Positions 1,576 through 48,500 of a stretch of DNA of 64,000 bases are shown piece after piece. The notes below the pieces were generated by a model. It was not told the DNA's origin. It worked only from the letters and a program-made list of their open reading frames with translations, and did no database searches. This DNA is from Sphingobacteriaceae bacterium (lineage in GTDB: Bacteria; Bacteroidota; Bacteroidia; UBA7662). The position numbers and the translations under genes are program-made. How positions within the stretch are numbered: the first letter of the stretch is position 1; every line of letters starts with the position of its first letter. The stretch covers positions 1-64,000 of the forward strand of contig JAUXNJ010000040.1 of NCBI GenBank assembly GCA_030682795.1. Reading direction: 5' to 3'.

Positions 1576-1709
1576 TGCCAACGGTTTGCGGCTTTGCGTT
1601 CGGGCGGGATTTTTAGCACTAAACTCGATACGAAGAACCGAATTTCAAATATAGCAAAAAGCGTCAAACAGAGCACTGAACCCCGCCTGACGCAAAACCG
1701 CTGTTAGGT
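1576..1709. repeat. attC-like repeat 1
   Basis: It runs from GCCAAC to GTTAGGT. The left arm GCGGCTTTGCG..GGCGGG pairs with a right arm whose reverse complement is GCGGTTTTGCG..GGCGGG. It is the leftmost intact repeat. The GTTAGGTGC at its right end is matched by GCACCTAAC at 6109-6117, the far end of the cassette 1703-6117. Confidence 0.85.
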
Positions 1710-6110: not shown

Positions 6111-6242
6111 ACCTAACGTTTTGCGGCTTTGCGAAGAAGCGGATTTCGGAGTACTAAACTGTCAATACATCACAAAAGTTGATGCGAGGTAGAATGTTCA
6201 ATTAACCACTGAACCCGCTTTTTTGCAAAACCGCTGTTATGC
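6111..6242. repeat. attC-like repeat 2
   Basis: It runs from ACCTAAC to GTTATGC. Stem arms: GCGGCTTTGCGAAGAAGCGG on the left, and GCGGTTTTGCAAAAAAGCGG as reverse complement of the right, with mismatches at stem positions 5, 11 and 14. The loop text (AGTACTAAACTGTCAATACA, then TTGATGCGAGGTAGAATG) is shared with repeats 8, 13 and 14 although the stem differs. Confidence 0.92.
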
Positions 6243-6266
6243 CTTCGTTGTTCTTTCATCCGTCTG

Positions 6267-7631
6267 TCAGTGCGTTAGGGAAGGCACACTCTTTGGCAAG
6301 TTTTGGTCAAGGGTTGGGATTGTGCGACTTGCCAATGTGTGTGACTTTGAAGCGTTGGCTTTTGTCTTGTTAAATATGTCGTTGTTTTCAATTAGGTCTG
6401 TGATTACTGCCTCAATTACTGGAACAGAAACAGCATTGCCCATTTGCTTATAAACCGCATTGTCGTTGTCTAGTAGTTTATATGTATCCGGGAAACCTTG
6501 AAGTCTTGCACATTCTCTCGGTGTCAATTTTCTTGCTCTGCCATTTTGAACAATTCCAAGTCTATTTGTGTCGGAAGCGGTCAGCGTAATTGAAATACTT
6601 TCGGGGTCAAGGAATTTGAAAACTTCAAATGACATATTTCCTGCTACTGGATTATACTTGTCTTCATAAGCACTCAAATAACCTTTGTTTACTAATGAAT
6701 TCAAAATGGTTTCAAGGTCGTTCTTTTTGTAAAATGTTTTAATTTGCTCAATTGTCAATGACTTTCCGTCTTGATGAGTGCCGAAAGTTTTCTTTCTTCG
6801 GTTTCCGATTAGAAGATTTAAAAATTCAATTTCTGCTTTTGTACACTTTCCTTTTATTCCTAATTCCCACGAGTGAATTGCTTGTCCACCTCTGTAATCA
6901 ATAAGTCTATAGCCGTGAAGTTTGGATAAATCTTCACCAACTACATTTTTTAACTTATTTACAAAGTCTTTTGTACACTCATATTTTTCTGGAAATTCTT
7001 TTTCAAGAATATCCTTTACTACTCGAATTGTTTTCGGTTCTGAAAAAAGTGAGGTTTGTCCGTTTTGTTCTTTAAATTTATGTGAGTCAGAAGCACCAAC
7101 GTCAGATTGAAGTTTCATTTTTATTGGTTCTTCTAATGTGCCAAGTATGTATATTCTTACTCTGTTTTGAGGAACACCAAAGTTGCTGCTGTTCAATAAA
7201 AGATAATTGACACTGTACCCAAGGTTTTTTAAACTATGGATGATCGTTTCAAAAGTCCGCCCTTCATCGTGTGTTGTAAGCCCTCGAACATTTTCTAACA
7301 AAAAGCCTTTAGGCTTGTATTTAGCAAGTAGTCTTTCCACTTCAAAAAATAGAGTTCCTCTTGTTTCGCCAAATCCTCTGCGTTTTCCTGCGTAGGAAAA
7401 CGATTGGCAAGGAAACCCTGCTAACATAAAATCAAAAGGAGGCAATTCCTCTACTTTAGTAACGTCTGAATATGGGTTGTGTCCAAAGTTCAATTCATAA
7501 GAAGCACAAGCATTCTTATCAATTTCTGATGAAAACACACATTCAGTTTTTAAATTAAACTTTTTACAAGCCTGTTCAAAACCTAAACGAATGCCTCCCG
7601 TTCCAGCGAATAAATCAATGAATTTTATCAT
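6267..7631 (-). CDS. DNA (cytosine-5) methyltransferase, restriction-modification
   Basis: Protein of 454 aa with the ordered motifs of C5-cytosine methyltransferases: motif I FIDLFAGTGG (4-13), motif IV GFPCQS with catalytic Cys75, motif VI ENV (113-115), motif VIII-like QNRVRIYILG, a variable target-recognition region (about 190-340), and C-terminal motifs ARLQGFPD and QMGNAVSVPV. The host enzyme methylates C5 of cytosine in a restriction site. The last about 35 residues (after the motif X region) are low-complexity and run almost to repeat 2, so the true family C-terminus may be shorter than this frame. It overlaps the endonuclease gene by 4 bp (ATGA); the set is one cassette (6236-9195). 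Confidence 0.92.
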   Translation of the reverse strand: MIKFIDLFAGTGGIRLGFEQACKKFNLKTECVFSSEIDKNACASYELNFGHNPYSDVTKVEELPPFDFMLAGFPCQSFSYAGKRRGFGETRGTLFFEVERLLAKYKPKGFLLENVRGLTTHDEGRTFETIIHSLKNLGYSVNYLLLNSSNFGVPQNRVRIYILGTLEEPIKMKLQSDVGASDSHKFKEQNGQTSLFSEPKTIRVVKDILEKEFPEKYECTKDFVNKLKNVVGEDLSKLHGYRLIDYRGGQAIHSWELGIKGKCTKAEIEFLNLLIGNRRKKTFGTHQDGKSLTIEQIKTFYKKNDLETILNSLVNKGYLSAYEDKYNPVAGNMSFEVFKFLDPESISITLTASDTNRLGIVQNGRARKLTPRECARLQGFPDTYKLLDNDNAVYKQMGNAVSVPVIEAVITDLIENNDIFNKTKANASKSHTLASRTIPTLDQNLPKSVPSLTH

Positions 7632-8659
7632 AGCACACTTTTTATCCAGTTAGACAATACTTTAAATTCTGCAAGAGTGTAGGCTACTGTGCAATCGCTG
7701 TGATTACAAATTGTAGAAATTGCAGATGAGCGTTGGAAATTTCCTGCACCGTCAAGAACATAAGCAATGTGGTAACCGCTTTTGTGAACTAATGCCTGAC
7801 GGTCGGCTGCTTGTCCTGCTTTTCTTTCTATGGTACTATTTGTAGTAACCTGGAAGCTAACTTCTATTCCAACTTTTTTCTTTCCTTTTTCAACAACTAA
7901 GTCGAAAGGCATTCCACCTTTTTTATCATAACCTTCAATGGTAATGTAACCATTGCGAATAATTTTGTATTTGTCTCCAAGCTCTTTAGTAAGGAAACTT
8001 ACTATTTCTGTTTGGGCTAATTGACCCAAACTATTTGCAATTGCACCGCTTGTCTGTTTACTGACGACTATATATCTCTGTTTTACGAATTTTGTTAACA
8101 CATCCTCATCGCCAAGCATAGTGCCAATTTCACAAGCAGTTAAGCCAGCGTGTTCAGCATAATCAGAAGTTGAAGCAAACAATAAAAGTGCAATCATATC
8201 GCACGTTAAATCGTCTAATTCCTTTTCTATAATTAATCCAGAACCATCTATGAACAGCTTTTTGCTGTTTAATCCATTAACAGGTAAAGCTTTAAACTCG
8301 TATCTATATGATTTTTCTTTCCAAATGAAATCGAAATAGTATTTTCCATTTGCACCTTTTCCTTTTGGGAAAATGTCTTTGAAAGAACGACCTAAACGTT
8401 GAATTGGTTCACCTCCATAATCTGACAAAACGGCTAAATGTTTTAGAAAAAGATTAGCTGGGTATTTAGCAACCTTTATTAAATCAAAAAGCTGAAATGG
8501 GTCATTTTTACTTAAAACGATAAGATGCAAAAAGTCATCTTGCGTTTTGAGAAGCAAAGGAAGAACATTAGCTAAAGCATTTTTTGTTTTTAATTCTTCG
8601 GGCCACCACATTGCAGCCTTTGTTTTAAGTTCCGTTATATTTCTGTTGTATTTAGCCAT
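7628..8659 (-). CDS. probable type II restriction endonuclease
   Basis: Protein of 343 aa lying between the C5-methyltransferase (4 bp overlap) and an HTH controller gene (8 bp overlap), the classic place for the cognate endonuclease. A PD-(D/E)XK-like core is visible at about 250-270: PFDLVVEKG then VGIEVSFQ (Asp253, Glu266-x-Ser), followed by ERKAGQAADRQALVHKSGYHIAYVLDG. The third catalytic lysine is replaced by serine or lies elsewhere, so the active site is only a proposal. The specificity cannot be read from sequence. Residues 160-220 may form a winged-helix-like module (my inference). Confidence 0.65.
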   Translation of the reverse strand: MAKYNRNITELKTKAAMWWPEELKTKNALANVLPLLLKTQDDFLHLIVLSKNDPFQLFDLIKVAKYPANLFLKHLAVLSDYGGEPIQRLGRSFKDIFPKGKGANGKYYFDFIWKEKSYRYEFKALPVNGLNSKKLFIDGSGLIIEKELDDLTCDMIALLLFASTSDYAEHAGLTACEIGTMLGDEDVLTKFVKQRYIVVSKQTSGAIANSLGQLAQTEIVSFLTKELGDKYKIIRNGYITIEGYDKKGGMPFDLVVEKGKKKVGIEVSFQVTTNSTIERKAGQAADRQALVHKSGYHIAYVLDGAGNFQRSSAISTICNHSDCTVAYTLAEFKVLSNWIKSVL

Positions 8660-8972
8660 TATGAGTTTTTAGATATTTAATTTTGCTTTCAGCGACCTTC
8701 AAAATGTTTAAATCCATTTCTTCGTTCAAGATTTTATAAACGATTTGGTCGCTAAGAAATTCATCAACCAATTCTTTTTCATCTACTTTAAAAAAGTCCG
8801 CAAGTTGTTTTATTAGTTGTCGAGTTGGCTGTCTTTCATTGCGTTCAATTTTTGCAAGGAGAGAAGTGTCAAGAGATAAACTTGTAGCAACTTCACGTAA
8901 TGTCAAGCCATTTATTTCTCTCAGTGTCCTGAGATGTTCTCCGAAAGTTGTATATTTTTTCACGACTGTCAT
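8652..8972 (-). CDS. XRE-family controller (C) protein of the restriction-modification set
   Basis: 106 aa from the ATG at 8972. This start is chosen because a good promoter (8989-9019) lies just upstream and would leave a leader of about 10 nt. The longer frame (to 9044) would begin upstream of that promoter. Residues 10-65 form an HTH_3 domain (FGEHLRTLREINGLTLREVA, LAKIERNERQPTRQLIKQLA). C proteins bind tandem operator boxes at their own promoter and time endonuclease expression after entry into a new host, which suits a mobile cassette. The C-terminal about 40 residues are helical and may mediate dimerisation. Confidence 0.8.
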   Translation of the reverse strand: MTVVKKYTTFGEHLRTLREINGLTLREVATSLSLDTSLLAKIERNERQPTRQLIKQLADFFKVDEKELVDEFLSDQIVYKILNEEMDLNILKVAESKIKYLKTHNG

Positions 8973-9027
8973 TTGGTCAATTTGTGTCCAAAAGTAGGTA
9001 TTATTTTTCTTTTGGTCAAAAACAGTC
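8972..9027 (-). promoter_or_regulatory. promoter and candidate C-box region of the restriction-modification cassette
   Basis: On the minus strand TTG (9019-9017), 20 nt, then TACTTTTG (8996-8989) matches a Bacteroidota -33/-7 promoter. The octamer-like TTTGGTCAA occurs twice in direct orientation (8972-8980 and 9011-9019), bracketing the -7 element. GACTGT (8964-8969) and ACAGTC (9022-9027) form an outer inverted pair. These are candidate controller boxes; the operator assignment is inference. Confidence 0.45.
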
Positions 9028-9188
9028 CACAAAATTTTATTCACATTGTCGAGGGTGGGAAATTTTAGCTCTTTTGGTTGCGAAGCGGTCGGCTATGTGT
9101 CGGGCAACCAAATGTGCTAAAATGTGCGGTTGGCTATTTCGTTTTCTTGTCGAAGTCTGTCGGTTTACACGGGTCGTCCTACAATGAG

Positions 9189-9321
9189 GCATAACGTTCC
9201 CACGCTTGGCGCAGTGGCGGACATTGAAAAACTTCACTTTAAATTTTGCACAAATGAACAATAGAAATACAGAACTTGAACTTAGCACATCACCCGCCAT
9301 TGAGCCAAACGTGTGTTGTGC
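9189..9321. repeat. attC-like repeat 3
   Basis: It runs from GCATAAC to GTTGTGC. Left arm CACGCTTGGCGCAGTGGCGG; right arm reverse complement CACGTTTGGCTCAATGGCGG (mismatches at 5, 11, 14). The end is GTTG, not GTTA, and the cassette that follows ends in CAAC, so this base varies together at the two ends of the cassette. Confidence 0.9.
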
Positions 9322-9487: not shown

Positions 9488-9618
9488 GCACAACGTTTGG
9501 CGGCTTGGCGAAGGTGGCGATTTAACCACAAATGTTCATACGAAGCACACACTTCAAATTTACGAAAAACTGTCATACGAAGCACTGAACCGCCACTTTT
9601 GCCAAACCGCTGTTAGTG
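9488..9618. repeat. attC-like repeat 4
   Basis: It runs from GCACAAC to GTTAGTG. Left arm GCGGCTTGGCGAAGGTGGCG; right arm reverse complement GCGGTTTGGCAAAAGTGGCG (mismatches at 5, 11, 14). The opening CAAC pairs with the GTTG at the other end of the 180 bp cassette, not with its own GTTA. Confidence 0.9.
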
Positions 9619-9643
9619 GCTGGGCTTCTTTGTTTTCCGTCTG

Positions 9644-9850
9644 TCAGCAACATTTTTTGTCCTGCTGAATTGGTGGACAAGCAACACTTCCGTAGCTACA
9701 ATAAACACAGCAGTCGCCTTGTTTTGGTTTTAGAACTTGTTTGCATTTTTCACATTCGTAAAAATATTGGCAAGCGTCTGTCGGCATTGTTTCTTCTTTC
9801 TTATGTCCGCAGTTGGGGCAAGTTATTGTTGATTGTAATTTGATTTCCAT
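9644..9850 (-). CDS. GDCCVxC domain protein
   Basis: 68 aa with two Cys pairs of a zinc-ribbon type (CPNCGHKK, CEKCKQVL) and the family signature GDCCVYCSYGSVACPPIQ, ending KKCC. Members of the GDCCVxC family sit beside mercury-transport genes, and some carry selenocysteine in the signature; here cysteines are encoded. It is 1 bp downstream of merTP in a three-gene cassette (9612-10929). Its likely role is intracellular binding or handling of Hg(II), which is inferred from context. Confidence 0.85.
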   Translation of the reverse strand: MEIKLQSTITCPNCGHKKEETMPTDACQYFYECEKCKQVLKPKQGDCCVYCSYGSVACPPIQQDKKCC

Positions 9851-9851
9851 T

Positions 9852-10451
9852 TTAATTTTCTTTTTTGTCGGTTACAGAATATCCTGTTGAGTTTATTGCT
9901 TTTTCGATTTCAGAAATATTTGTTTTTGAGTTGTCAAATTCTATGATTGCATTTCCATTTTCATATGAAGCGTTTGAACTTATTATTCCTGTCAATTTAT
10001 TTACTTCGTGATTTACGTGTTCTTCGCAACTCGCACAAGTCATTCCGCTAATCGTAAATTTTACTTTTTGAATATTGGATTTGTCCACTACTATGATTTG
10101 CTTTTCTTTCTTTGGGTAGAAAATGCTTGAATAGTATGGAAAGGCAAGCATAACGATTGCAAATGCTGTTACAATTCCTAAAAACATTTTTGACTGAATG
10201 AATTTTGGTTTTTCTTCTGTTTCACAATTGCAGTCAATTTGCTTTTTAGGTTTTAACTTTTGATACCAAGCAAAACCAAGAACTAAAATTGTCAAACCGA
10301 TAAAATAAGGTCGAAAAGGTTCAAGCCAAGAAAAAGTTGAAGCAAGTCCGCTTGTCCCTGCGATTAAAGCCAAGACAGGTGTAATACAACACAATGAAGC
10401 TGCAATTGCTGTTAAAAGTCCTGCTCCGATTAGTTTTTTGTCTGCTTTCAT
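9852..10451 (-). CDS. merTP: mercuric transport protein MerTP (MerT-MerP fusion)
   Basis: 199 aa. Residues 1-100 hold three to four hydrophobic helices of the MerT type, with the vicinal Cys pair SLCCITPVLA in the first helix and a cytoplasmic DCNCE motif. Residues about 125-199 form an HMA domain with GMTCASCEEH, the MerP metal-binding motif. MerTP takes up Hg(II) across the inner membrane for reduction or sequestration inside. It overlaps arsR by 4 bp. No merA reductase lies in the cassette, so uptake without local reduction is odd; merA may be elsewhere, or the GDCCVxC protein may receive the metal. Confidence 0.92.
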   Translation of the reverse strand: MKADKKLIGAGLLTAIAASLCCITPVLALIAGTSGLASTFSWLEPFRPYFIGLTILVLGFAWYQKLKPKKQIDCNCETEEKPKFIQSKMFLGIVTAFAIVMLAFPYYSSIFYPKKEKQIIVVDKSNIQKVKFTISGMTCASCEEHVNHEVNKLTGIISSNASYENGNAIIEFDNSKTNISEIEKAINSTGYSVTDKKEN

Positions 10452-10822
10452 AATGTTTCTAATATTTTGTTTTCGTCAAGTATTTTGAAAAACGGTTTCA
10501 GCATTTTTTCATACTCTTTTGTCAATGAGTAAAAAATGGTTTGAGCTTCTCGTTCGGTTTCAATTAGTTTTCGGTCTTTGAGTTTTCGCAAGTGTTGAGA
10601 AACTGCTGAAATTGTCATACCGAGAATGTCGCTTATATCACAAACACAAAGTCGTTTTTCTTCATATAGTAAAAAGAGAATTTTCAGCCTTACGTTGTTT
10701 CCTGCTAATTCAAGTCCGTTCGATAAATAGTCAAACGAGTCGTTGAGTTCTGAAACTCTGTCTTTACAGCGATTTATTTGTTTAATGTCTGCTTGTTGTC
10801 GTATGCAAGAATTGTTGTCCAT
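10448..10822 (-). CDS. ArsR/SmtB-family metal-sensing repressor
   Basis: 124 aa from the ATG at 10822 (MDNNSCIRQQADIK). The longer frame begins inside the operator. A winged helix at 35-115 contains the sensor motif ERKLCVCDIS-like RLCVCDIS in alpha-3 and the recognition helix MTISAVSQHLRKLKDRKLIETER. The Cys-x-Cys pair in the DNA-contacting region is the ligand set of ArsR/CadC-type soft-metal sensors. It heads the merTP cassette and probably represses it until Hg(II) binds. A perfect palindrome lies 19 bp upstream of its start. Confidence 0.9.
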   Translation of the reverse strand: MDNNSCIRQQADIKQINRCKDRVSELNDSFDYLSNGLELAGNNVRLKILFLLYEEKRLCVCDISDILGMTISAVSQHLRKLKDRKLIETEREAQTIFYSLTKEYEKMLKPFFKILDENKILETL

Positions 10823-10840
10823 AATGCGAAGATAGTCAAA

Positions 10841-10856
10841 TTGCTTATTTAAGCAA
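10841..10856. promoter_or_regulatory. predicted ArsR operator (TTGCTTA-TT-TAAGCAA)
   Basis: Perfect 7 bp inverted repeat with a 2 bp centre, just upstream of arsR. On the minus strand TATCTTCG (10834-10827), a one-mismatch -7 element, follows directly, so a bound dimer would block the promoter. The position and symmetry fit ArsR-family operators. Confidence 0.6.
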
Positions 10857-10922
10857 CTACTAAAATACAAAATGTCAAAAAGAACCCGATTTGTCTGTCG
10901 GGTTGTGTCGTCATAGCCTTGC

Positions 10923-11053
10923 CACTAACGTTCTCGCGCTTGGCGCAGTGGGGGACAAGGAGCACCACACTTGATTTCTAGCACGATGTACTAAAGTACG
11001 AAAATGTTTCTTTTTAGCACTAAACCCCCATTGCAGCCAAACGCGTGTTATAG
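10923..11053. repeat. attC-like repeat 5
   Basis: It runs from CACTAAC to GTTATAG. Left arm CGCGCTTGGCGCAGTGGGGG; right arm reverse complement CGCGTTTGGC-T-GCAATGGGGG, with one extra base on the right arm like an extrahelical base. The loop contains ACTAAAGTACGAAAATG, shared with repeat 15. Confidence 0.9.
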
Positions 11054-11649: not shown

Positions 11650-11781
11650 CTATAACGGTTTCGGGCTTTGCGTTCGGGCGGGTTTCGGAGCACAAAACTG
11701 TCAACCAGCACTGAACTTGAATAGAAGCACAAAGCTCCAAGTTTGCACGTCACCCCGCCTGACGCAAAACCCGTGTTAGCA
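11650..11781. repeat. attC-like repeat 6
   Basis: It runs from CTATAAC to GTTAGCA. Left arm CGGGCTTTGCGTTCGGGCGGG; right arm reverse complement CGGGTTTTGCGTCAGGCGGG. The stem is related to repeat 1, with one base more on the left arm. Confidence 0.9.
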
Positions 11782-12849: not shown

Positions 12850-12981
12850 TGCTAACGTTTTGCAGCTACCCGAAGGTGGCGATTTCGAAGCACTTCACTG
12901 TCAACAAAGCACAAACTTTGATAGAAGCAAAAAGCTTGATTTAACCACTGAACCGCCACTTTTGGGTAGGTGCTGTTATAG
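12850..12981. repeat. attC-like repeat 7
   Basis: It runs from CTGCTAAC to GTTATAG. Left arm GCAGCTACCCGAAGGTGGCG; right arm reverse complement GCACCTACCCAAAAGTGGCG (mismatches at 4, 11, 14). It is almost identical to repeat 11 over its whole length. Confidence 0.92.
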
Positions 12982-15211: not shown

Positions 15212-15343
15212 CTATAACGTTTTGGCGCTTGGCGCAGTGGCGGATTTCGGAGCACAAAACTGTCAATACACCACAAAAGTTGATGCGAGGTAGAATGTTC
15301 AATTAACCACGACACCCGCCATTGAGCCAAACGCCTGTTACCA
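15212..15343. repeat. attC-like repeat 8
   Basis: It runs from CTATAAC to GTTACCA. Left arm GGCGCTTGGCGCAGTGGCGG; right arm reverse complement GGCGTTTGGCTCAATGGCGG (mismatches at 5, 11, 14). Apart from the cassette-specific ends it differs from repeat 13 at about two positions by eye. Confidence 0.92.
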
Positions 15344-16242: not shown

Positions 16243-16374
16243 TGGTAACGTTTTCGGGCTTGGCGAAGGTGGCGATTTTCACCACAAATGTTGATGCGGA
16301 GAACCAAACTTTGATTAACCACAAATGTGTCTGCGGAGAACTGAACCGCCACTTTTGCCAAACCCGTGTTATGC
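16243..16374. repeat. attC-like repeat 9
   Basis: It runs from TGGTAAC to GTTATGC. Left arm CGGGCTTGGCGAAGGTGGCG; right arm reverse complement CGGGTTTGGCAAAAGTGGCG (mismatches at 5, 11, 14). The inner text shares ACCACAAATGTT with repeat 4. Confidence 0.92.
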
Positions 16375-18578: not shown

Positions 18579-18710
18579 GCATAACGTTTCGCAGCTACCC
18601 GAAGGGCGGGACTTTTACCACAAAACTTGATTTGAAAAACGAATGTTTCATTAACCACTAAACTGTCTTTGGAGCACGAAACCCCGCCTTTTGGGTAGGT
18701 GCTGTTAGTG
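18579..18710. repeat. attC-like repeat 10
   Basis: It runs from GCATAAC to GTTAGTG. Left arm GCAGCTACCCGAAGGGCGGG; right arm reverse complement GCACCTACCCAAAAGGCGGG (mismatches at 4, 11, 14). Confidence 0.92.
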
Positions 18711-19461: not shown

Positions 19462-19593
19462 CACTAACGTTTTGCAGCTACCCGAAGGTGGCGATTTCGA
19501 AGCACTTCACTGTCAACTAAGCACAAACTTTGATAGAAGCACAAAGCTTGATTTAACCACTGAACCGCCACTTTTGGGTAGGTGCTGTTATGC
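19462..19593. repeat. attC-like repeat 11
   Basis: It runs from CACTAAC to GTTATGC. The stem arms are identical to those of repeat 7 (GCAGCTACCCGAAGGTGGCG and partner), and the loop is almost identical too; the cassette-specific ends differ. This shows that stem/loop and ends evolve independently. Confidence 0.92.
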
Positions 19594-20502: not shown

Positions 20503-20634
20503 GCATAACGGTTTGCCGCTTTGCGAAGGCGGGGATTTTCAGCACTAAACTTCATTAGAAGCACAAAGCTTGAATTTAACACTTCACTGTCATAGAAGCA
20601 CGAAACCCCCGCTTTTGCAAAACGGCTGTTAGCA
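20503..20634. repeat. attC-like repeat 12
   Basis: It runs from GCATAAC to GTTAGCA. Left arm GCCGCTTTGCGAAGGCGGGG; right arm reverse complement GCCGTTTTGCAAAAGCGGGG (mismatches at 5, 11, 14). Confidence 0.92.
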
Positions 20635-21154: not shown

Positions 21155-21286
21155 TGCTAACGTTTTGGCGCTTGGCGCAGTGGCGGATTTCGGAGCACAA
21201 AACTGTCAATACACCACAAAAGATGATGCGAGGTAGAATGTTCAATTAACCACGTCACCCGCCATTGAGCCAAACGCCTGTTACCA
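21155..21286. repeat. attC-like repeat 13
   Basis: It runs from TGCTAAC to GTTACCA. The stem arms are the same as in repeat 8 (GGCGCTTGGCGCAGTGGCGG and partner). Internal text differs from repeat 8 at about two positions by eye, although the two lie 5.9 kb apart. Confidence 0.92.
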
Positions 21287-21985: not shown

Positions 21986-22117
21986 TGGTAACGGTTTGGC
22001 GCTTGGCGCAGTGGCGGATTTCGGAGCACAAAACTGTCAAAACACCACAAATGTTGATGCGAGGTAGAATGTTCAATTAACCACGTCACCCGCCATTGAG
22101 CCAAACGCCTGTTACCG
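21986..22117. repeat. attC-like repeat 14
   Basis: It runs from TGGTAAC to GTTACCG. The stem is the same type as repeats 8 and 13. The GTTACCGCC at its right end is matched by GGCGGTAAC at 22851-22859, but no repeat stem follows there: the far end of this cassette has lost its repeat. Confidence 0.9.
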
Positions 22118-22859: not shown

Positions 22860-23057
22860 TTACTTATAGGCGAATAAAAATCATTCTATGCGGGATAACG
22901 TTGGAAGCTAGGTATGTTTTTATGCGCTCCTGCAAGATAGGAGATTTATAGTAATTTGAACAATGGCCGTTATTATAATCACAATGGTCATTCGAGGACC
23001 GCATTAGTTGGCTTGACGCGGTAGGGGCCAATGAACGCCCTGTTTGGGTACCCGCAT
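22860..23057. other. gene-free disrupted zone of the array
   Basis: No credible gene. It begins directly after the orphan cassette end GGCGGTAAC (22851-22859), where a repeat stem would be expected. GGGATAACGTTGGAAGCT at 22893-22910 looks like the opening of another repeat, and GCCAATGAACGCCCTGTTTG at 23025-23044 weakly resembles a right arm. The arms no longer pair convincingly. It is probably a mutated or rearranged repeat. Confidence 0.35.
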
Positions 23058-23203
23058 GAGTAAAGTTCTCGCGTTTGGCGCAGTGGCCCCGATGGCCATC
23101 GGGATAAGGAGCACTACCCTTGATTGCCTGCACGATGGACTAAAGTACGAAATGGTTTCAGTTTAGTACTAAAACCCCCATTGCAGCCAAACGCGTGTTG
23201 TAT
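23058..23203. repeat. attC-like repeat 15 (degenerate, 146 bp)
   Basis: Related to repeat 5: left arm CTCGCGTTTGGCGCAGTGGC, right arm CCCCCATTGCAGCCAAACGC. It opens with GTAAAG instead of TAACG and ends GTTGTAT. An extra block of about 14 bp, around the palindrome CCCGATGGCCATCGGG (23088-23103), interrupts the left side and explains the length. Probably no longer functional. Confidence 0.75.
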
Positions 23204-23210
23204 CCCGTTG

Positions 23211-23875
23211 TCACATGTCTTTTGATATTAGTCCTTTGAAATTTTTGATACTATTGTCAACATGGTTTAGTTCATTCACCCATTCAACAAGGTCTTTGCT
23301 TAGCCATTCAATACCTTCAATAATTCCATTTTTATATGAATGAAGGGCATTTAAATCCCAACTGATGGCTTCGTGGTGAAATATTCTATTGCGTAATTTT
23401 CTAATTCCATTGAATTTGGAACTCATTGTCTTTCGCTTTCTGATTTGTTTCGGACAATTTGGAAAGGCCAGCCTTAAGTTCTTCCAAAGTGACATTTCAA
23501 ATTTTGCATCAAAAAGGGAGGTCCAAAATCCAAATGACAGTTCTGAGATGATTCTTCCAGGTGTAACTTCCTTTTTTTCGGACTGAATCTTTGTTCTAGC
23601 TTCAGATATCTTATCTATTTGAAATCTAGTGGCTATTTTGATAAAGTCTTTATGATCGTACCATTCTTTATCGTCAAATTTTTTTGTCAGTTGGATAGCT
23701 ATTGCATTTCTTAAACCAATCTCAAGAATTGAAAGTAGGGGATAAATGATTCTGAAATGAGTATGTTGCTTTTGTAATGATCAAGCGCTTTTGAAATGTC
23801 ACGTTTGTTGTGGTTCAAATATGGCTCAAGCCTTTCGGATGAAATGATCCTGTCAACTATTGCCTGTTTATCCAT
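23211..23875 (-). pseudogene. Abi-family (abortive infection) protein, frameshifted
   Basis: The ATG at 23875 starts MDKQAIVDRIISSERLEPYL and reads to SNILISESF; the frame then breaks at about 23741-23747. One missing T in TCATTTATCCCC would restore PLLSILEIGLRNAIAIQLTK. After the break the frame continues through KKFDDKEWYDHKDFIKIA, TPGRIISELSFGFWTSLFD and the signature RKLRNRIFHHEAI to the stop at 23211. The whole resembles Abi-like (Abi_2) proteins, which have a HEPN-like RN..FH motif and block phage growth. It is either a genuine 1 bp deletion or a sequencing error in a T run. It lies at the recombinase-side end of the array. Confidence 0.75.
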
Positions 23876-24127
23876 AAACTTTGTACCTTTGTGTTCTAGT
23901 CCCGGTAATTCCTCTCCCAGTTTTTATGCTGGTGATGAAGCCGGGTTCTTTGTTTTATATCGTTGAATCTACTTTATTCCGATTCAAATCCCTTTTTTCT
24001 ACATTTTCAGTTTTGAGGCAGGCTTATTTTGACTATAGGCGAAATCTCCTATTATAAGGACAATTTTCTGATTTCTACTGGAGCCCCATCACAGTCAAAC
24101 ACGAGTCACGAGCACTACCACTTACCA
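23876..24127. other. gene-free stretch with a decayed repeat arm
   Basis: No open frame of interest. CCCCATCACAGTCAAACACGA at 24084-24104 (first 20 bases quoted in part) resembles the right arm of repeats 5 and 15 (CCCCCATTGCAGCCAAACGC). I read it as the remnant of a sixteenth repeat, or of a primary attachment site, at the recombinase end of the array. Confidence 0.35.
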
Positions 24128-24436
24128 TCATAATTGCAAAGTCAACTTTAAATGCCCACCAAATCCTTTTTGAATAATTTTCATGAGTGTTGAAAGCTTG
24201 AGTTCGCCAGCATTGTTTTCAAGGCTAGAAATGAGGGATTTACTGGTTCCACACTTTGCTGCCAACTCTTTTTTCGACATGCCTAGTTTCAAACGCGCTT
24301 CTTGAAGCAAAAAGCCAAGTCGAAATGCCTCAAATCCTTGTTCCCACTGGTCGCGCTTTTCAGTTCCTGGTTTTCCATATTGCTCGTCGAGTAATTCATC
24401 GAGCGTCGTTATGTGCTTGTTTTTTAGCTGTGTCAT
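24128..24436 (-). CDS. HigA-like XRE antitoxin
   Basis: 102 aa. The N-terminal 40 residues (TTLDELLDEQYGKPGTEKRD) form the extension typical of HigA antitoxins of the HigB/HigA (Gp49-like) class. Residues about 45-95 are an HTH_3 domain (LQEARLKLGMSKKELAAKCG, SLISSLENNAGELKLSTL), ending with the beta-strand tail GHLKLTLQL. No toxin gene lies upstream; instead a second HigA-like gene precedes it by 53 bp. It may be an orphan antitoxin able to neutralise toxins from elsewhere. Confidence 0.8.
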   Translation of the reverse strand: MTQLKNKHITTLDELLDEQYGKPGTEKRDQWEQGFEAFRLGFLLQEARLKLGMSKKELAAKCGTSKSLISSLENNAGELKLSTLMKIIQKGFGGHLKLTLQL

Positions 24437-24489
24437 TATGGTAGTCCTCCATTTTATTTAGAAATGCTAAGCCTATTGGCGCTAACTAC

Positions 24490-24801
24490 TTAAAACCGAA
24501 TATCGATTTGGACTTTGCCACCAAGCCCAATCTCAACAATGTCAAACAGTGTTTTTAAGGTCATATTGCTGCCGTCGTTTTCTAAGCGCGAAATGTAAGT
24601 GCGTTTTTTATCTACGAGTTGAGCGAGTTGTTCTTGGGTGAGCTGCCGCTCCTCCCGGGCTTTTTTGAGCAGAAGTCCGATTTTGAAACTTTCAAACGAG
24701 CTTTCCAGCTTGTCTCTTCGCGGGGCGCCCTTGGTGCCATAAACGGCATCTTTGATTTCCGACCATGTTTTTAGATCATTGGCTAATGGTTTTGTCTTCA
24801 T
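24490..24801 (-). CDS. HigA-like XRE antitoxin
   Basis: 103 aa, organised as the neighbouring HigA-like protein: N-terminal extension LKTWSEIKDAVYGTKGAPRR, HTH_3 domain (KKAREERQLTQEQLAQLVDK, TYISRLENDGSNMTLKTL) and tail GKVQIDIRF. A remnant of its toxin overlaps its 5' end (24776-24980). The region marks the transition from AT-rich to GC-rich DNA. Confidence 0.85.
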   Translation of the reverse strand: MKTKPLANDLKTWSEIKDAVYGTKGAPRRDKLESSFESFKIGLLLKKAREERQLTQEQLAQLVDKKRTYISRLENDGSNMTLKTLFDIVEIGLGGKVQIDIRF

Positions 24802-24980
24802 AATAACGCGTCATTAATTGAATCGCTCTGTTTATTTCGTTTTTGGGGGTTTGCTGTGATTTTTTGGTGAAGCCGTTCAACAGAATTACCAAGCTGTCAT
24901 CATCAAAAAAGCAGAAAACACGTCAGCTATCCGAACCTAATTGAATCCGTGCTTCATACAAGCCTTTTTGCCATAGCACT
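24776..24980 (-). pseudogene. HigB/Gp49-like toxin remnant
   Basis: The minus-strand frame reads VLWQKGLYEARIQLGSDS, a TGA stop, then RVFCFFDDDSLVILLNGFTK, KSQQTPKNEINRAIQLMTRY and YEDKTISQ stop. This is the C-terminal two thirds of a HigB-type RNase toxin (phage-derived Gp49-like), with the tyrosine codon before RVF turned into TGA. The N-terminal third is missing upstream. It overlaps the antitoxin start by 26 bp, as in intact higBA operons. The toxin is therefore dead while the antitoxin survives. Confidence 0.75.
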
Positions 24981-25005
24981 AATGTAAGTTAAAAGTTACA
25001 ATTTT

Positions 25006-25028
25006 AAAAATGCCGATGCAGCATTTTT
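25006..25028. terminator. hairpin terminator behind the recombinase gene
   Basis: AAAAATGC / CGATGCA / GCATTTTT forms an 8 bp stem with A and T flanks, so it can act in both directions. It is placed 45 bp after the stop of the tyrosine recombinase. Confidence 0.55.
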
Positions 25029-25072
25029 GGTCAAAAAACACTGACGCATAAGGGTCTAGTAACTGGGCGGTT

Positions 25073-26182
25073 TTATAAATCGAGTTGCTCAATAGGACTC
25101 ACCAGCCGGTCAAAGGCGGGCTTGGTTACCCAGGTGTAGAGCTCCGTGGTTTTGCTGCTTTTGTGACCGAGTAGCACCTGAATGTAGCGCAAATCGGTAC
25201 CGGCCTCAAGCAAGTGAGTAGCGTAGGAGTGCCTTAGCCAATGCAAAGTCGCTTCTTTTTGCACCCCAGCTCGGGCACAAGCTTGCTTGAATACCGATTG
25301 CAAACTGCGTTCGTCGTAGGCTTCCCCAGCCTTTTGCCCTTCAAATAGCCAATTGGTGGTGGGATAGAGCTCCTGGTATTCGCGTACCAAGCTCATGAGT
25401 TTAGCAGCCAGCGGCACCATGCGGTCTTTTTGGCCTTTGCCACCGCGAACCCACAGCACTTTACGGTTAAAATCGAGGTCGGTGGCGCGCAATTTGAGCA
25501 GCTCGCCACGGCGTAATCCGCAGCCATAAATGAGCTGCAGCATGCAACGGTGCTTTAAATTACGGGGAGCTTTGAGGATACGCGTGATCTCCTCGGCCGA
25601 CAAAACGTGCGGTAAACGATGCGCGCGCCGCGGCCGTTGTATTTCCTCCACTTCCATGCTGCTGTGCGAAAACTGTCGGTAGTAGAGTTTGATGGCATTG
25701 ATCACTTGGTTTTGGTAAGAAGCCGAATATTTGTGCTTGAGGATGTAGTCGTGGTTGAATTGTACGAGGTCTTCGGTGCTTAAATTATCAAGCGGGCGCT
25801 CGACAAAGTAGCGGAAAAATACATTCAAGGCATCCACATAGGTGCGGATGGTGTTTTCAGAATAGCGCTTTTGCCGCAACCAGCGTTCGTAACGACTCAG
25901 ACATCGTAGGTGCTCCTCGGTAGCGTCGGGGAGTAGCTGACCGCCAACAGCACGGCCATCAAGTTGCCGCTCAAAAATGGCTACACCTGCAAATTGAGCG
26001 CTAAGGCTTTCAAAATCATAGTTGTCATAACGCACTAACCAGGCTTGGCGATCCACGCTCCACATCCTGTCGCCATAGGGCAAGTTTTTGAGCGTATTCA
26101 CAATCACTTGGTGGTATTTAAACTTCAATTCCCACCAAAGAATATGCCGGTGCTGCACGATTTTGAGTTTGATGTTTTCCAT
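25073..26182 (-). CDS. tyrosine recombinase, candidate cassette integrase
   Basis: 369 aa. Residues 1-85 form an extra N-terminal module (VNTLKNLPYGDRMWSVDRQAW), 90-190 the SAM-like core-binding domain (RYERWLRQKRYSENTIRTYV), and 195-365 the catalytic domain. The full active site is visible: Arg224 (GCGLRRGEL), Lys249 (GGKGQKDR), His314 and Arg317 (HWLRHSYATHL), His340 (LGHKSSK) and Tyr349 (TTELYTWV). The about 35-40 residue insertion that marks IntI between the Lys and HxxR boxes is absent. The gene is co-oriented with the cassettes and lies on their 5' side, about 1 kb from the decayed array end. It belongs to a Bacteroidota integrase type, not XerC/D (inference). Whether it acts on the array is untested. 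Confidence 0.88.
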   Translation of the reverse strand: MENIKLKIVQHRHILWWELKFKYHQVIVNTLKNLPYGDRMWSVDRQAWLVRYDNYDFESLSAQFAGVAIFERQLDGRAVGGQLLPDATEEHLRCLSRYERWLRQKRYSENTIRTYVDALNVFFRYFVERPLDNLSTEDLVQFNHDYILKHKYSASYQNQVINAIKLYYRQFSHSSMEVEEIQRPRRAHRLPHVLSAEEITRILKAPRNLKHRCMLQLIYGCGLRRGELLKLRATDLDFNRKVLWVRGGKGQKDRMVPLAAKLMSLVREYQELYPTTNWLFEGQKAGEAYDERSLQSVFKQACARAGVQKEATLHWLRHSYATHLLEAGTDLRYIQVLLGHKSSKTTELYTWVTKPAFDRLVSPIEQLDL

Positions 26183-29819: not shown

Positions 29820-30518
29820 GCCTTTTGCTTTGAGTTGGGTGATGTTTGGGTGTTGGGTTTGGGTTGCTTTTGGTTGGGTTGAGAACCATTCACAGTTACA
29901 AGACGTGGGGCATTGTGGCGAGGTTGCATCTGTCTAGAAAGATTTTCAGACCGCCCTTGATAGACCGCTCGCCTGCGGCTCGCTTTACAGACCGGTCGCC
30001 TTCGGCACCCTAACAGACCGCTGCGCTGACAGACCGCTCGCGTTGCTCGCTCAGAGATGGAGCAGGCTCTGGCGTTGGTGTGTCAGTCTTATTTGATCAT
30101 TTTTGCTAGGTATCATGGAGATGCTTGCCGCCAAATCCAAAATCACAAACCTCCGTGAGCTCCGTGGTCTCAGTGTTTAACACAAAAAAAACACCTCTAG
30201 CACCTCGCCGCCCATCCGCCAGCGCCTGATCTGTCTCTGAACTAACGAAGTGAGTGGTCTATCAGGGAGCGCCAGCGACCGGATGGGATTTCTGATTTAC
30301 GATTTCGATTGGCGATTTCCGATTTGGCAGCAAACGCAAATGATGTATCTGTTAAAAATGATTATGCTGTGCAATTAGATCAACGCCAGCGCCAAAGCTA
30401 TCTGAAAAGCGCAGCGGTCTGATGTCTGAAAAGGGAGCGCCAGCGACTGGTCTGTTAAGCGAACCAAAGGTGAGCAGTCTATTGCATTTTTCCCCATTTT
30501 TACCCGCCAATCTCTAAT
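29820..30518. other. 700 bp gene-free region with dispersed repeats
   Basis: No gene is supported. It holds repeat copy A (29962-30180) and a second block (30399-30481) made of short units of the type CAGACCGCTCGC and GAGCGCCAGCGA. Both blocks recur on the other side of the yfcC gene. A G/T-rich stretch (29826-29880) precedes the small periplasmic gene. Confidence 0.6.
29962..30180. repeat. dispersed repeat, copy A
   Basis: About 219 bp, closely similar to copy B at 32110-32330: both start AGAC(C/T)GCTCGCCTGCGGC, contain ATCATTTTT(G/A)CTAG(G/A)TATCATG, and end CCTCCGTGAGCTCCGTG..(C/T)..GTGTTTAA. The copies are in direct orientation and flank yfcC. Confidence 0.75.
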
Positions 30519-32111
30519 ATGAAAGTCCCGCACACCTACGTCCTCCTCTTCGGCATCATTTGCCTGGCCGCACTCCTCAGCTGGCTCGTACCTACGGGTG
30601 AATTTCAGCGGGCTCCGCAAGAGGTAAATGGCTCCGTCCGTGAACTCATTGTAGCTGATTCATATGCGCCAGTGCCCGCCGAGCCGCAGTCGTGGCAAAT
30701 CCTCACGGCCTTCTTCAAAGGCTTCGAGCGCCAAGCTGGCATCATCGTCTTTATATTTATGGTAGGAGGCGTGTTTTTCATCCTGCAACAAAGCCGCGCC
30801 ATCGACCTCGGCATCTTGGCTTTGGTGGCTCGCGTACGCCAACTCGAAAACCGCCCCTGGGCCGCCCGCCTCGGTGCCGGCAACCTCATAATCACCCTCT
30901 GCATGCTGCTTTTTGCAGTTTTTGGCGCCGTTTTTGGCATGAGCGAAGAAACCATTCCCTTCGTACTCATTTTTGTGCCCTTGGCTCTGTCGCTCGGCTA
31001 CGATGCCATTGTGGGTGTGGCCATGTGTTTTGTGGGTGCCGCACTGGGCTTTGCAGGGGCGCTGCTCAATCCTTTTACCATTGGCGTAGCGCAGGGCATT
31101 GCGGGGGTGCAGCCGTTTAGCGGACTCGAATACCGACTTTTTTGCTTCTTCATGATCAATTTGGTGGGCATTGCCTATGTATTGCGCTATGCCGCCCGGG
31201 TGAAGCGCCAAGCGAGCAGCAGTTTGTGCACCGACGCCAATACCTGGTGGCAGCAACAACAATCCCAGCAACTCGAGCTGCCCAGCCATCAAAAAGGAGG
31301 GAAAGGCGCCTGGTGGGCTTATGGCTTGGTACTATTGGGGATGCTGCTGTTCAGCGTCCAAACGCCCATCAGCAGCATCACCTTCGGAAGTAAAGCGTTC
31401 CATTGGCCGGTTTTGCCGGTGCTAACGGTACTTTTTGGCCTTCTCTCTCCCTTGGTCTTGCGGTTTTCGGCCCATTATTTTGTGTTACTGCAGCTGGGAT
31501 TCAGTATTCTGGGCATCATTGTAGGCGTTTTGGGCCACCATTGGTACATGGAAGAAATAGCGGCCCTCTTTCTGGCGCTCGGCATCAGCAGCGCCATGAG
31601 CTTGGGCTTGAGTGCCGATGCTTTTGTGAAGCAGTTCCTCGACGGCGCCCGCGACATTGCGGGGGCAGCGCTGGTGGTAGGACTCGCCGCCGGTATTTTG
31701 GTGGTGCTCGAACAAGGCAAGGTGATCGACGCCATGCTGTACCACACCGCCCAAGCCTTTCAGGGCATTCCCAAGGCCTGGGCCGTGGAACTCATGCTGG
31801 TGGTACAAACGGGGATCAATATTTTGGTGCCCTCGGGCTCCGGGCAAGCCGCCCTCACCATGCCTGTGATGGCGCCACTGGCCGATTTGCTCGGTATCTC
31901 GCGCCAAACGGCTGTGCTGGCCTTTCAATTTGGAGATGGCTTTACCAACCTCATTACCCCCACCTCGGGCGTGCTCATTGGGGTGCTCGGCATGGCCCGC
32001 ATCGATTATGTGCGCTGGTTTAAATTTATGCTGCCACTGCAATTTATCTTGATGTTGTTGGGGATGTTGCTCCTGCTTGGCCCCGTTTTCTGGCAGCTCC
32101 CCGGCTTCTAG
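30519..32111 (+). CDS. yfcC: YfcC-family membrane carrier
   Basis: 530 aa with about twelve hydrophobic helices. The N-terminus MKVPHTYVLLFGIICLAALL with SWLVPTGEFQR is the standard opening of the YfcC/ArcD-like (C4-dicarboxylate anaerobic carrier) family. Other hallmarks: FFKGFERQAGIIVFIFMVGG, NPFTIGVAQGIAG, and near the C-terminus LVPSGSGQAALTMPVMAPLA and FGDGFTNLITPTSGVLIGVL. Substrates are probably amino acids, peptides or carboxylates; not determined. It is a single gene between two copies of a dispersed repeat. Confidence 0.88.
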   Translation: MKVPHTYVLLFGIICLAALLSWLVPTGEFQRAPQEVNGSVRELIVADSYAPVPAEPQSWQILTAFFKGFERQAGIIVFIFMVGGVFFILQQSRAIDLGILALVARVRQLENRPWAARLGAGNLIITLCMLLFAVFGAVFGMSEETIPFVLIFVPLALSLGYDAIVGVAMCFVGAALGFAGALLNPFTIGVAQGIAGVQPFSGLEYRLFCFFMINLVGIAYVLRYAARVKRQASSSLCTDANTWWQQQQSQQLELPSHQKGGKGAWWAYGLVLLGMLLFSVQTPISSITFGSKAFHWPVLPVLTVLFGLLSPLVLRFSAHYFVLLQLGFSILGIIVGVLGHHWYMEEIAALFLALGISSAMSLGLSADAFVKQFLDGARDIAGAALVVGLAAGILVVLEQGKVIDAMLYHTAQAFQGIPKAWAVELMLVVQTGINILVPSGSGQAALTMPVMAPLADLLGISRQTAVLAFQFGDGFTNLITPTSGVLIGVLGMARIDYVRWFKFMLPLQFILMLLGMLLLLGPVFWQLPGF

Positions 32112-32330
32112 ACTGCTCGCCTGCGGCTCGCTTTACAGACCGGTCGCCTTTGGCTCCCTAACAGACCGCCTCGCTGACAGACCGCTCGCGTTGCTCGCTG
32201 AGATAAGGAGTAGGCGCTGGCGTAGGTGTGTCGGTATTGTTTATGATCATTTTTACTAGATATCATGAAGGTGCTTGCCGCCAAATCCAAAATCACAAAC
32301 CTCCGTGAGCTCCGTGACCTTCGTGTTTAA
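32110..32330. repeat. dispersed repeat, copy B
   Basis: Direct repeat of copy A (29962-30180), starting at the stop codon of yfcC. It is followed at 32389-32461 by a second shared block matching 30399-30481. The region 32112-32497 contains no gene. Confidence 0.75.
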
Positions 32331-32497
32331 ATCAAAAAGCACCTCCAGCCCCTCAGCGCCCATCCGATAGTACCCACGCTATCTGAAAAGCGCAGCGATC
32401 TGATGTCTGAAAAGTGAGCGCCAGCGAACGGTCTGTAAAGCGAGCCGTAGGCGAGCGATCTTCTCCGTGCGCTCCGTGACCTCCGTGTTTTAAATAA

Positions 32498-47969: not shown

Positions 47970-48500
47970 ATTCAAATTGAGCGGAGCGAAATCCCGCAAG
48001 GCGGGGGTTCAAAGTTCAGAGCGTGTCCTTGCTGGCAGTGCGGGACGTTTCTGTTATGACTTGGCGCTGGCGTTCGGGCTTCCTACCCTGTTAGGGCGAA
48101 TTCAAAGCTCAAAGTGGGGTAGGTGCAACCATCATGATTTGTTTTCTAAACATCAGGCTAGGGCCTGCACGATCTCTCAGCGAACCGCAGCTGAGCGGTC
48201 TGTAAGTGAGCGCCAGCGGCGACCGGTCTGGTGGCGCAGCGGTCTGTCAGCTTTTTCAAATACTACTGCTAATTTAATAGCGAGCCACAGGCGATTGGGC
48301 ATCTTGCCCTGCTAGAGCGAGTTCAAAATTCAAAGTTCAGGGTTAGAAGGAGGAGATACTGGCAGCATGATTTGTATTCTAAACATCAACGCCAGGGTCT
48401 GTACTATCTCTCAGCGAACCGCAGCTGAGCGGTCTGTTAGGGAGCAACGCGACCGGTCTGTTAGCGCAGCGGTCTGTTAGGGAGCCGTAGGCGACCGATC
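47970..48500. repeat. gene-free cluster of dispersed repeats (copy C region)
   Basis: No gene is supported between the desaturase and the hydrolase. TGAGCGGAGCGAAATCCCGC at 47978-47997 recurs at 52034-52053. Two imperfect tandem copies of about 110-130 bp (from 48137 and 48366: GATTTGT(T/A)TTCTAAACATCA ... CTCAGCGAACCGCAGCTGAG, then CGGTCTGT units) use the same CAGACCG/GAGCGCCAGCGA building blocks, in reverse, as the repeats around yfcC. Confidence 0.6.

Follow-up and report, generated by a model that had tools for sequence, protein, structure and literature searches.

A candidate cassette integrase lacking the IntI insertion and its array of attC-like sites in Bacteroidota

RESULTS

A tyrosine recombinase gene lies 5′ of an array of attC-like sites

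The DNA analyzed here (the window) comprises positions 1 to 64,000 of contig JAUXNJ010000040.1, assembly GCA_030682795.1, from a Sphingobacteriaceae bacterium. It carries the gene of a tyrosine recombinase, P0001, followed downstream on the same strand by 14 attC-like sites of 125 to 128 nt, most of them exactly 126 nt long, spread over positions 1579 to 22114 (Table 1). The recombinase is thus 5′ of the array and codirected with it, as in the preliminary description of this DNA. A site model built from the array gave 19 matches genome-wide; 15 of them lie inside this array, including a degenerate site near the recombinase gene. The array mostly carries defence and metal genes, among them those of a GmrSD-type protein, a YhcG-type nuclease, an Eco57I-type methylase and a Fic protein, and ArsR/MerT genes. 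An Rfam search of window positions 1 to 26500 returned no family.

Other repeats were noted elsewhere in the window. A noncoding block of 134, 95 and 89 nt occurs twice (29961-30480 and 32109-32461; 85 to 90% identical) around a C4-dicarboxylate carrier gene (30519-32111), and 55-nt direct repeats, 89% identical, are found at 48157-48211 and 48391-48445.

TABLE 1 Features of the recombinase locus and its array (window coordinates)
Feature	Position	Strand	Remarks
Tyrosine recombinase P0001, candidate cassette integrase without IntI insertion	25073..26182	-	369 aa
N-terminal HARP/DUF5710-like module, aa 1-73	25964..26182	-	In frame in 127/146 relatives
SAM-like core-binding domain, aa about 97-171	25670..25894	-	PF13495, 1.7e-12
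Catalytic domain of P0001, aa 193-353	25124..25606	-	RKHRHY complete; then C-terminal SP-I/F/L-D/E motif
attI-like site, ...CGCCTATAAGTAA/GTTACCGCC, start of first intact cassette	22860..22945	-	Crossover (slash) at G 22859
Degenerate attC-like site, nearest to recombinase	23061..23200	-	51 bits
attC-like site 1	21989..22114	-	
attC-like site 2	21158..21283	-	
attC-like site 3	20506..20631	-	
attC-like site 4	19465..19590	-	
attC-like site 5	18582..18707	-	
attC-like site 6	16246..16371	-	
attC-like site 7	15215..15340	-	
attC-like site 8	12853..12978	-	
attC-like site 9	11653..11778	-	
attC-like site 10	10926..11050	-	
attC-like site 11	9491..9615	-	
attC-like site 12	9192..9318	-	
attC-like site 13	6114..6239	-	
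attC-like site 14	1579..1706	-	
Cassette with complete BanI-type restriction-modification operon	6114..9195	-	HTH control protein, BanI, C5 methylase
ArsR/MerT cassette	9491..10929	-	96.5% identical to cassettes in L098 and L110

P0001 has all catalytic residues but not the IntI insertion

Pfam placed the integrase domain of P0001 at residues 193 to 353 and its SAM-like domain at residues 99 to 171. The six catalytic residues listed in the preliminary description (R224, K249, H314, R317, H340 and Y349) are at the positions given there and are invariant in an alignment of 45 sequences. The short spacing reported between K249 and H314 was confirmed as well; it amounts to 65 residues in P0001 and to 64 or 65 in nearly all of 71 relatives, with few exceptions. 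When P0001 was aligned with the Vibrio cholerae integrase VchIntIA (2A3V), the jump from residue 268 to 290 corresponded to that from 179 to 243 of IntI, indicating that P0001 lacks a stretch of about 42 residues containing the IntI insertion, in agreement with the initial proposal.

P0001 scored 208 bits against the IntI model TIGR02249, below the cutoff of 265, and 213 bits against NF040815, just below the cutoff of 220. It did not reach the cutoffs of the NCBIfam XerC and XerD equivalogs either (174 and 173 bits versus 335 and 330). The structures nearest to the AlphaFold model of full-length P0001 were those of archaeal Xer and of the integron integrase, with 4a8e as the best match in the PDB. 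The XerC/XerD-like paralogues are encoded by separate genes of the same genome, at 31% identity. The C-terminal SP-L/F-D motif was carried by most array recombinases (65 of 68) and by both IntI sequences (2/2); of 25 Xer-like rows, none had it, the single match in the Xer group being an outlier. Phage records yielded distant relatives only, with at most 32% identity among the matches listed.

The two ends of each cassette match up to a break at GTT

Base changes in the arms of the sites are strongly compensatory. In the array, 95.5% of the cells were paired, and 59 cells showed double changes, compared with 21.5 in shuffles and 3 to 11 when the partner was slid. In 54 sites of related genomes, double changes were found at 21 of 24 pairs.

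Cassettes start with GTTRNNNNN and end with the reverse complement of that same start. The two ends of one cassette agreed at 5.93 of 8 positions, versus 2.60 for the flanks of one site and 2.56 for random pairs. By position after GTT, the agreement between own ends was 98 to 100% (positions 4 to 9), 54% (10), 2% (11) and 71 to 85% (12 to 15), and it was random from position 16. From this pattern, the crossover lies within GTT, where integrons also have it, at the resolution of GTT and not of the exact bond. The pattern also defines an outer arm of 15 nt, which is formed in the free cassette alone. The 7-bp R box RYYYAAC/GTTRRRY failed here, as GTTR alone is kept and the arm is 15 nt long. For three cassettes, the joined ends were predicted to fold at -52 to -67 kcal/mol, compared with -41 to -52 kcal/mol for the integrated form (RNA parameters).

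An attI-like site follows the recombinase gene

Eighty loci came from named genomes, which span Flavobacterium (F. psychrophilum among them), Paenimyroides, Galbibacter and many MAGs. In 69 of these 80, the motif TA(T/C)A-N5-GTTR was found 69 to 175 nt past the stop codon of the recombinase gene, mostly at 93 to 106 nt. The density of the motif was 8.8 per kb at 40 to 140 nt after the stop codon, versus 0.16 and 0.07 per kb elsewhere, a 54- to 120-fold difference. Judging by the other end of the same cassette, the first cassette starts at the GTT of this motif, and the 60 nt ahead of this GTT often fold as a long hairpin.

About 2.2 kb separate the recombinase gene from the first intact cassette in the window, versus about 100 nt in most relatives. 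With its attI-like site so far from the gene, the window copy may be less active. The intervening region (22860-25072) holds two HTH genes together with a disrupted ORF and with decayed arms that resemble those of the sites. At about position 22899, GTTATCCCG matches an arm that the degenerate site has farther upstream, at 23200.

In 11 of 60 loci, compared with 1.5 expected, a contig ended no more than 5 nt from a predicted crossover, at the GTT of an attI-like or attC-like site. Branching or population variation at active sites would give such ends; for the sites, repeat collapse can explain part of them.

A whole cassette is shared between families, and the platform occurs on a plasmid

The ArsR/MerT cassette of the window is shared, at the identity given in Table 1, by arrays of three families, and it ends at the predicted crossovers. 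The recombinases of these three arrays are far more diverged than the cassette. On a complete plasmid of the isolate Chryseobacterium sp. SNU WT5 (NZ_CP041688.1; L270), the recombinase gene is followed by at least four downstream sites, indicating that the whole platform can be mobile.

These data also bear on the nature of the repeats. As they fold, show compensatory variation and stand after genes, the repeats could be taken for RNA structures or repetitive extragenic elements with no part in recombination. This explanation is already contradicted by the end rule proper to each cassette, which breaks sharply at GTT, by the precise transfer of a whole cassette and by the presence of an attI-like insertion point; we regard its probability as negligible. 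Recombination sites are what we take the repeats to be below.

Recombinase and repeats occur together and in a fixed arrangement

Co-occurrence was examined in 295 genomes of the host's class, as the preliminary description had advised. Repeats were found in 204 genomes, the recombinase clade in 147 and both in 136. Repeats were thus present in 136 of 147 genomes with the recombinase, compared with 68 of 148 without it (P = 4e-19, not corrected for kinship). A canonical IntI scored above the cutoff in a single genome of the 295, one without repeats.

The arrangement was nearly invariant. At 40 loci taken in order of similarity, 40 sites were downstream of the recombinase on the same strand, 2 were upstream and none was on the opposite strand, with twice as much DNA searched upstream. 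In the 80 loci of named genomes, all 104 sites were on the strand of the recombinase, 103 of them downstream. Loci L096 to L115 were kept out of the statistics because they had been picked for having a recombinase and repeats on one contig. No sites were detected within 7 to 9 kb of the recombinase at L115, L151 and L155.

In the main clade, the recombinase gene and the array are codirected. A small clade (L108, L110, L111 and L112) carries the same cassettes, but its recombinase genes are divergent from the array, which is the classical orientation; these recombinases also lack the IntI insertion. In at least two loci of this divergent clade, an attI-like TTGCGTATA...|GTT start was found on the 5′ side of the recombinase gene. 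L110 belongs to this group and carries the ArsR/MerT cassette, showing that both arrangements share cassettes.

The preliminary description had taken repeats in genomes devoid of the clade, or a different recombinase beside the arrays in all relatives, as evidence against its proposal. The former were found in the literal sense, since 68 of the 204 repeat-bearing genomes had no full-length match, but about nine of 34 such genomes that we examined contained broken remnants of the clade; the rest had Xer-type paralogues only. Both situations are consistent with loss of the integrase rather than with the use of another enzyme. As for the latter, no different recombinase adjoined the arrays in all relatives. 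In one contig of the same family (G020:C6; L113, L034, L044 and L053), an array of at least six sites had no recombinase in the 20 kb read and appeared CALIN-like.

Such observations raise the alternative that the repeats form a cassette array lacking an integrase of its own (CALIN), on which a canonical IntI or Xer acts in trans, and that the adjoining gene is an unrelated phage or island integrase. The genomes without a full-length clade copy speak for it, as does G020, a genome of the same family with 15 sites whose array region is devoid of a recombinase. We nevertheless consider it very improbable, given the nearly fixed strand and position of the sites relative to the recombinase, the attI-like motif after its stop codon, the scarcity of canonical IntI, the distinct and divergent nature of the XerC/XerD-like paralogues, and the clade remnants described above. 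The tie of strand and position, the attI-like site, the near absence of IntI and the co-occurrence together indicate that the clade is very probably a cassette integrase.

Most recombinases of the clade carry a HARP-like N-terminal module

The extra N-terminal module first noticed ahead of the SAM-like domain is indeed present in P0001. A Pfam search with residues 1 to 92 of P0001 gave no match. Among 47 homologous modules, 12 matched DUF5710 (best E value, 4e-7) and 5 matched HARP (PF07443; best, 1.3e-5), that of P0001 not being one of these. A profile of the module ranked the HARP domain of SMARCAL1 (4O66) first among PDB sequences, with a weak E value of 0.08. The structure prediction suggested in the preliminary description, made with AlphaFold, yielded a compact beta-beta-alpha-beta-beta-alpha-beta fold, with a mean pLDDT of 82 for the module alone and of about 90 or more for residues 1 to 70 in the full-length model. 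Foldseek found no solved relative of this model, with no E value below 0.6, and the HARP assignment therefore relies on sequence profiles.

The module was present in 127 of 146 recombinases examined. It occurs in two or three tandem copies in the recombinases of L032, L148 and L153. The 19 recombinases that lack it include a sublineage of 281 to 331 aa, which has no IntI insertion either and yet retains arrays with the same end rule. As several of the 19 have normal arrays, the module cannot be essential everywhere; it may aid recombination while being dispensable.

The human HARP protein binds single-strand/double-strand junctions, bubbles and Holliday junctions (PMC4035279). By analogy, such binding of branched DNA would fit a role of the module at a folded site. 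The preliminary description had proposed that another device, perhaps this module, holds the folded sites in place of the IntI domain. The likeness to HARP and DUF5710 found in members of the family supports the idea, and so do the prevalence of the module, its multiplication in some recombinases and the DNA targets of human HARP. The top rank of 4O66 points the same way, if weakly. On the other hand, the sublineage devoid of both module and insertion keeps its arrays, and structural searches gave no solved relative. A functional replacement of the IntI insertion by the HARP-like module is therefore conceivable but rather doubtful.

blaVEB cassettes have the ends of the Bacteroidota system

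VEB beta-lactamases are clinically important resistance determinants. An IncC plasmid of Klebsiella michiganensis carries a C-terminal fragment of a clade recombinase with SPFDDL at its end; next come an attI-like stretch, GTTAGCGGTAATTT and blaVEB-3. Bacteroidota-type cassette ends were noted on the blaVEB genes of L272 (NZ_CP084417.1, positions 6133-7795) and of L275 to L279, and on IncC plasmids blaVEB-3 occupies the attI-like site of such a recombinase fragment.

The blaVEB cassette of class 1 integrons, where it is mostly found today, has the same GTT start, GTTAGCGGTAATTT, and ends with ...AAACTACCGCTAAC and a 127-nt site that has the mismatch at position 11. Thus veb1 (blaVEB-1), with its 133-bp attC, shares the cassette start and end, the mismatch and the arms with the system described here. 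The site model matched the site of the class 1 integron cassette with 28 bits (E = 1e-4 in 30 kb). It found no site on the blaVEB-3 plasmid L272, because an IS26-like insertion cuts the 3′ end of the cassette. The 133-bp veb1 attC is about 50-fold less efficient than the aadB attC with IntI1, an effect of the inner part of the veb1 site (PMC3518468). Origin of the VEB cassette in the Bacteroidota system is the simplest interpretation, the direction of transfer being our inference.

DISCUSSION

The locus has several features of an integron platform, namely, an attI-like site where the cassettes begin, an array of attC-like sites conserved in structure, and R arms that belong to each cassette. 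The system works like an integron, yet its recombinase is not an IntI by definition, as the IntI-specific domain is missing, the TIGR02249 cutoff is not reached and the 7-bp R box does not apply. With high confidence, we propose that P0001 is the integrase of an integron-like gene capture system of Bacteroidota, and its clade very probably catalyzes recombination without the IntI insertion.

The mechanism that we propose builds on the observed anatomy, covariation, cassette-end rule, attI position, co-localization and strand. P0001 would recombine the short attI-like site beside its own gene with the folded, 125- to 128-nt cassette ends, cutting at GTT, so that circular cassettes would enter at attI and leave the array by excision. 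The attC-like site would be recognized as a hairpin, probably of a folded single strand. In the free cassette, the two ends would form the 15-nt outer arm (9 to 10 bp, one conserved mismatch and 4 bp) on one side of the crossover, and a 10-bp arm and an 8-bp arm with conserved unpaired spacers would lie on the other side. In most members, the HARP/DUF5710-like module may help to hold the junction between single- and double-stranded DNA.

Compared with IntI (class 1, VchIntIA/2A3V), P0001 has the same catalytic residues, the C-terminal SPLD motif, an attI by its gene, folded cassette ends and a G^TT crossover. It differs by the absence of the insertion and its TIGR02249 score, and its clade differs by the HARP-like module of most members and, in the main clade, by the codirection of gene and array. 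Similarly, its sites share with classical attC the GTTR core and the succession of R arm, unpaired spacer, L arm and variable terminal structure. However, their length is almost fixed at 126 nt, their spacer is asymmetric (1/5 nt), the R arm spans 15 nt rather than 7 bp and is strictly mismatched at position 11, and the 10-bp L arm is accompanied by a third arm of 8 bp. XerA, XerC and XerD share the core fold with P0001, and the NF040815 score is close to the cutoff, but they have neither the SPLD tail nor a tie to arrays.

The clade might be an IntI that lost its insertion, or else a Xer-type enzyme that acquired the use of folded sites on its own. The former is suggested by the C-terminal SP-L/F-D motif common to the clade and IntI and by their identical site topology and GTT crossover, whereas monophyly of the clade apart from IntI was not rejected (p_AU 0.87). 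The first tree falsely joined long Xer branches and was redone without three rows. As many of its branches are weak, the tree cannot decide whether the insertion was lost by the clade or gained by IntI. On balance, we rate descent from IntI as slightly short of an even chance.

We found no earlier report of this system in the open-licence literature. The profile used in integron searches is that of the IntI-specific domain (PMC9668308); with IntegronFinder 2, complete integrons appeared almost absent from Bacteroidota (PMC9024848). Because these surveys require the IntI domain, they would miss this system. With sites in 204 and the integrase in 147 of the 295 genomes, a main route of gene exchange in Bacteroidota, a phylum of environmental and host-associated bacteria, has probably been overlooked. 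We lean toward the view that it represents a second, phylum-wide kind of integron, whose enzymes lack the IntI domain and are mostly aided by a HARP-like module, and whose cassettes, including VEB, are exchanged with class 1 integrons. Work on IntI holds that the IntI domain is needed for recombination of folded sites (PMC8138268, PMC9668308); the system described here makes this requirement testable. The system is, moreover, a possible source of the blaVEB cassette and may explain why IntI1 makes poor use of the long attC of that cassette.
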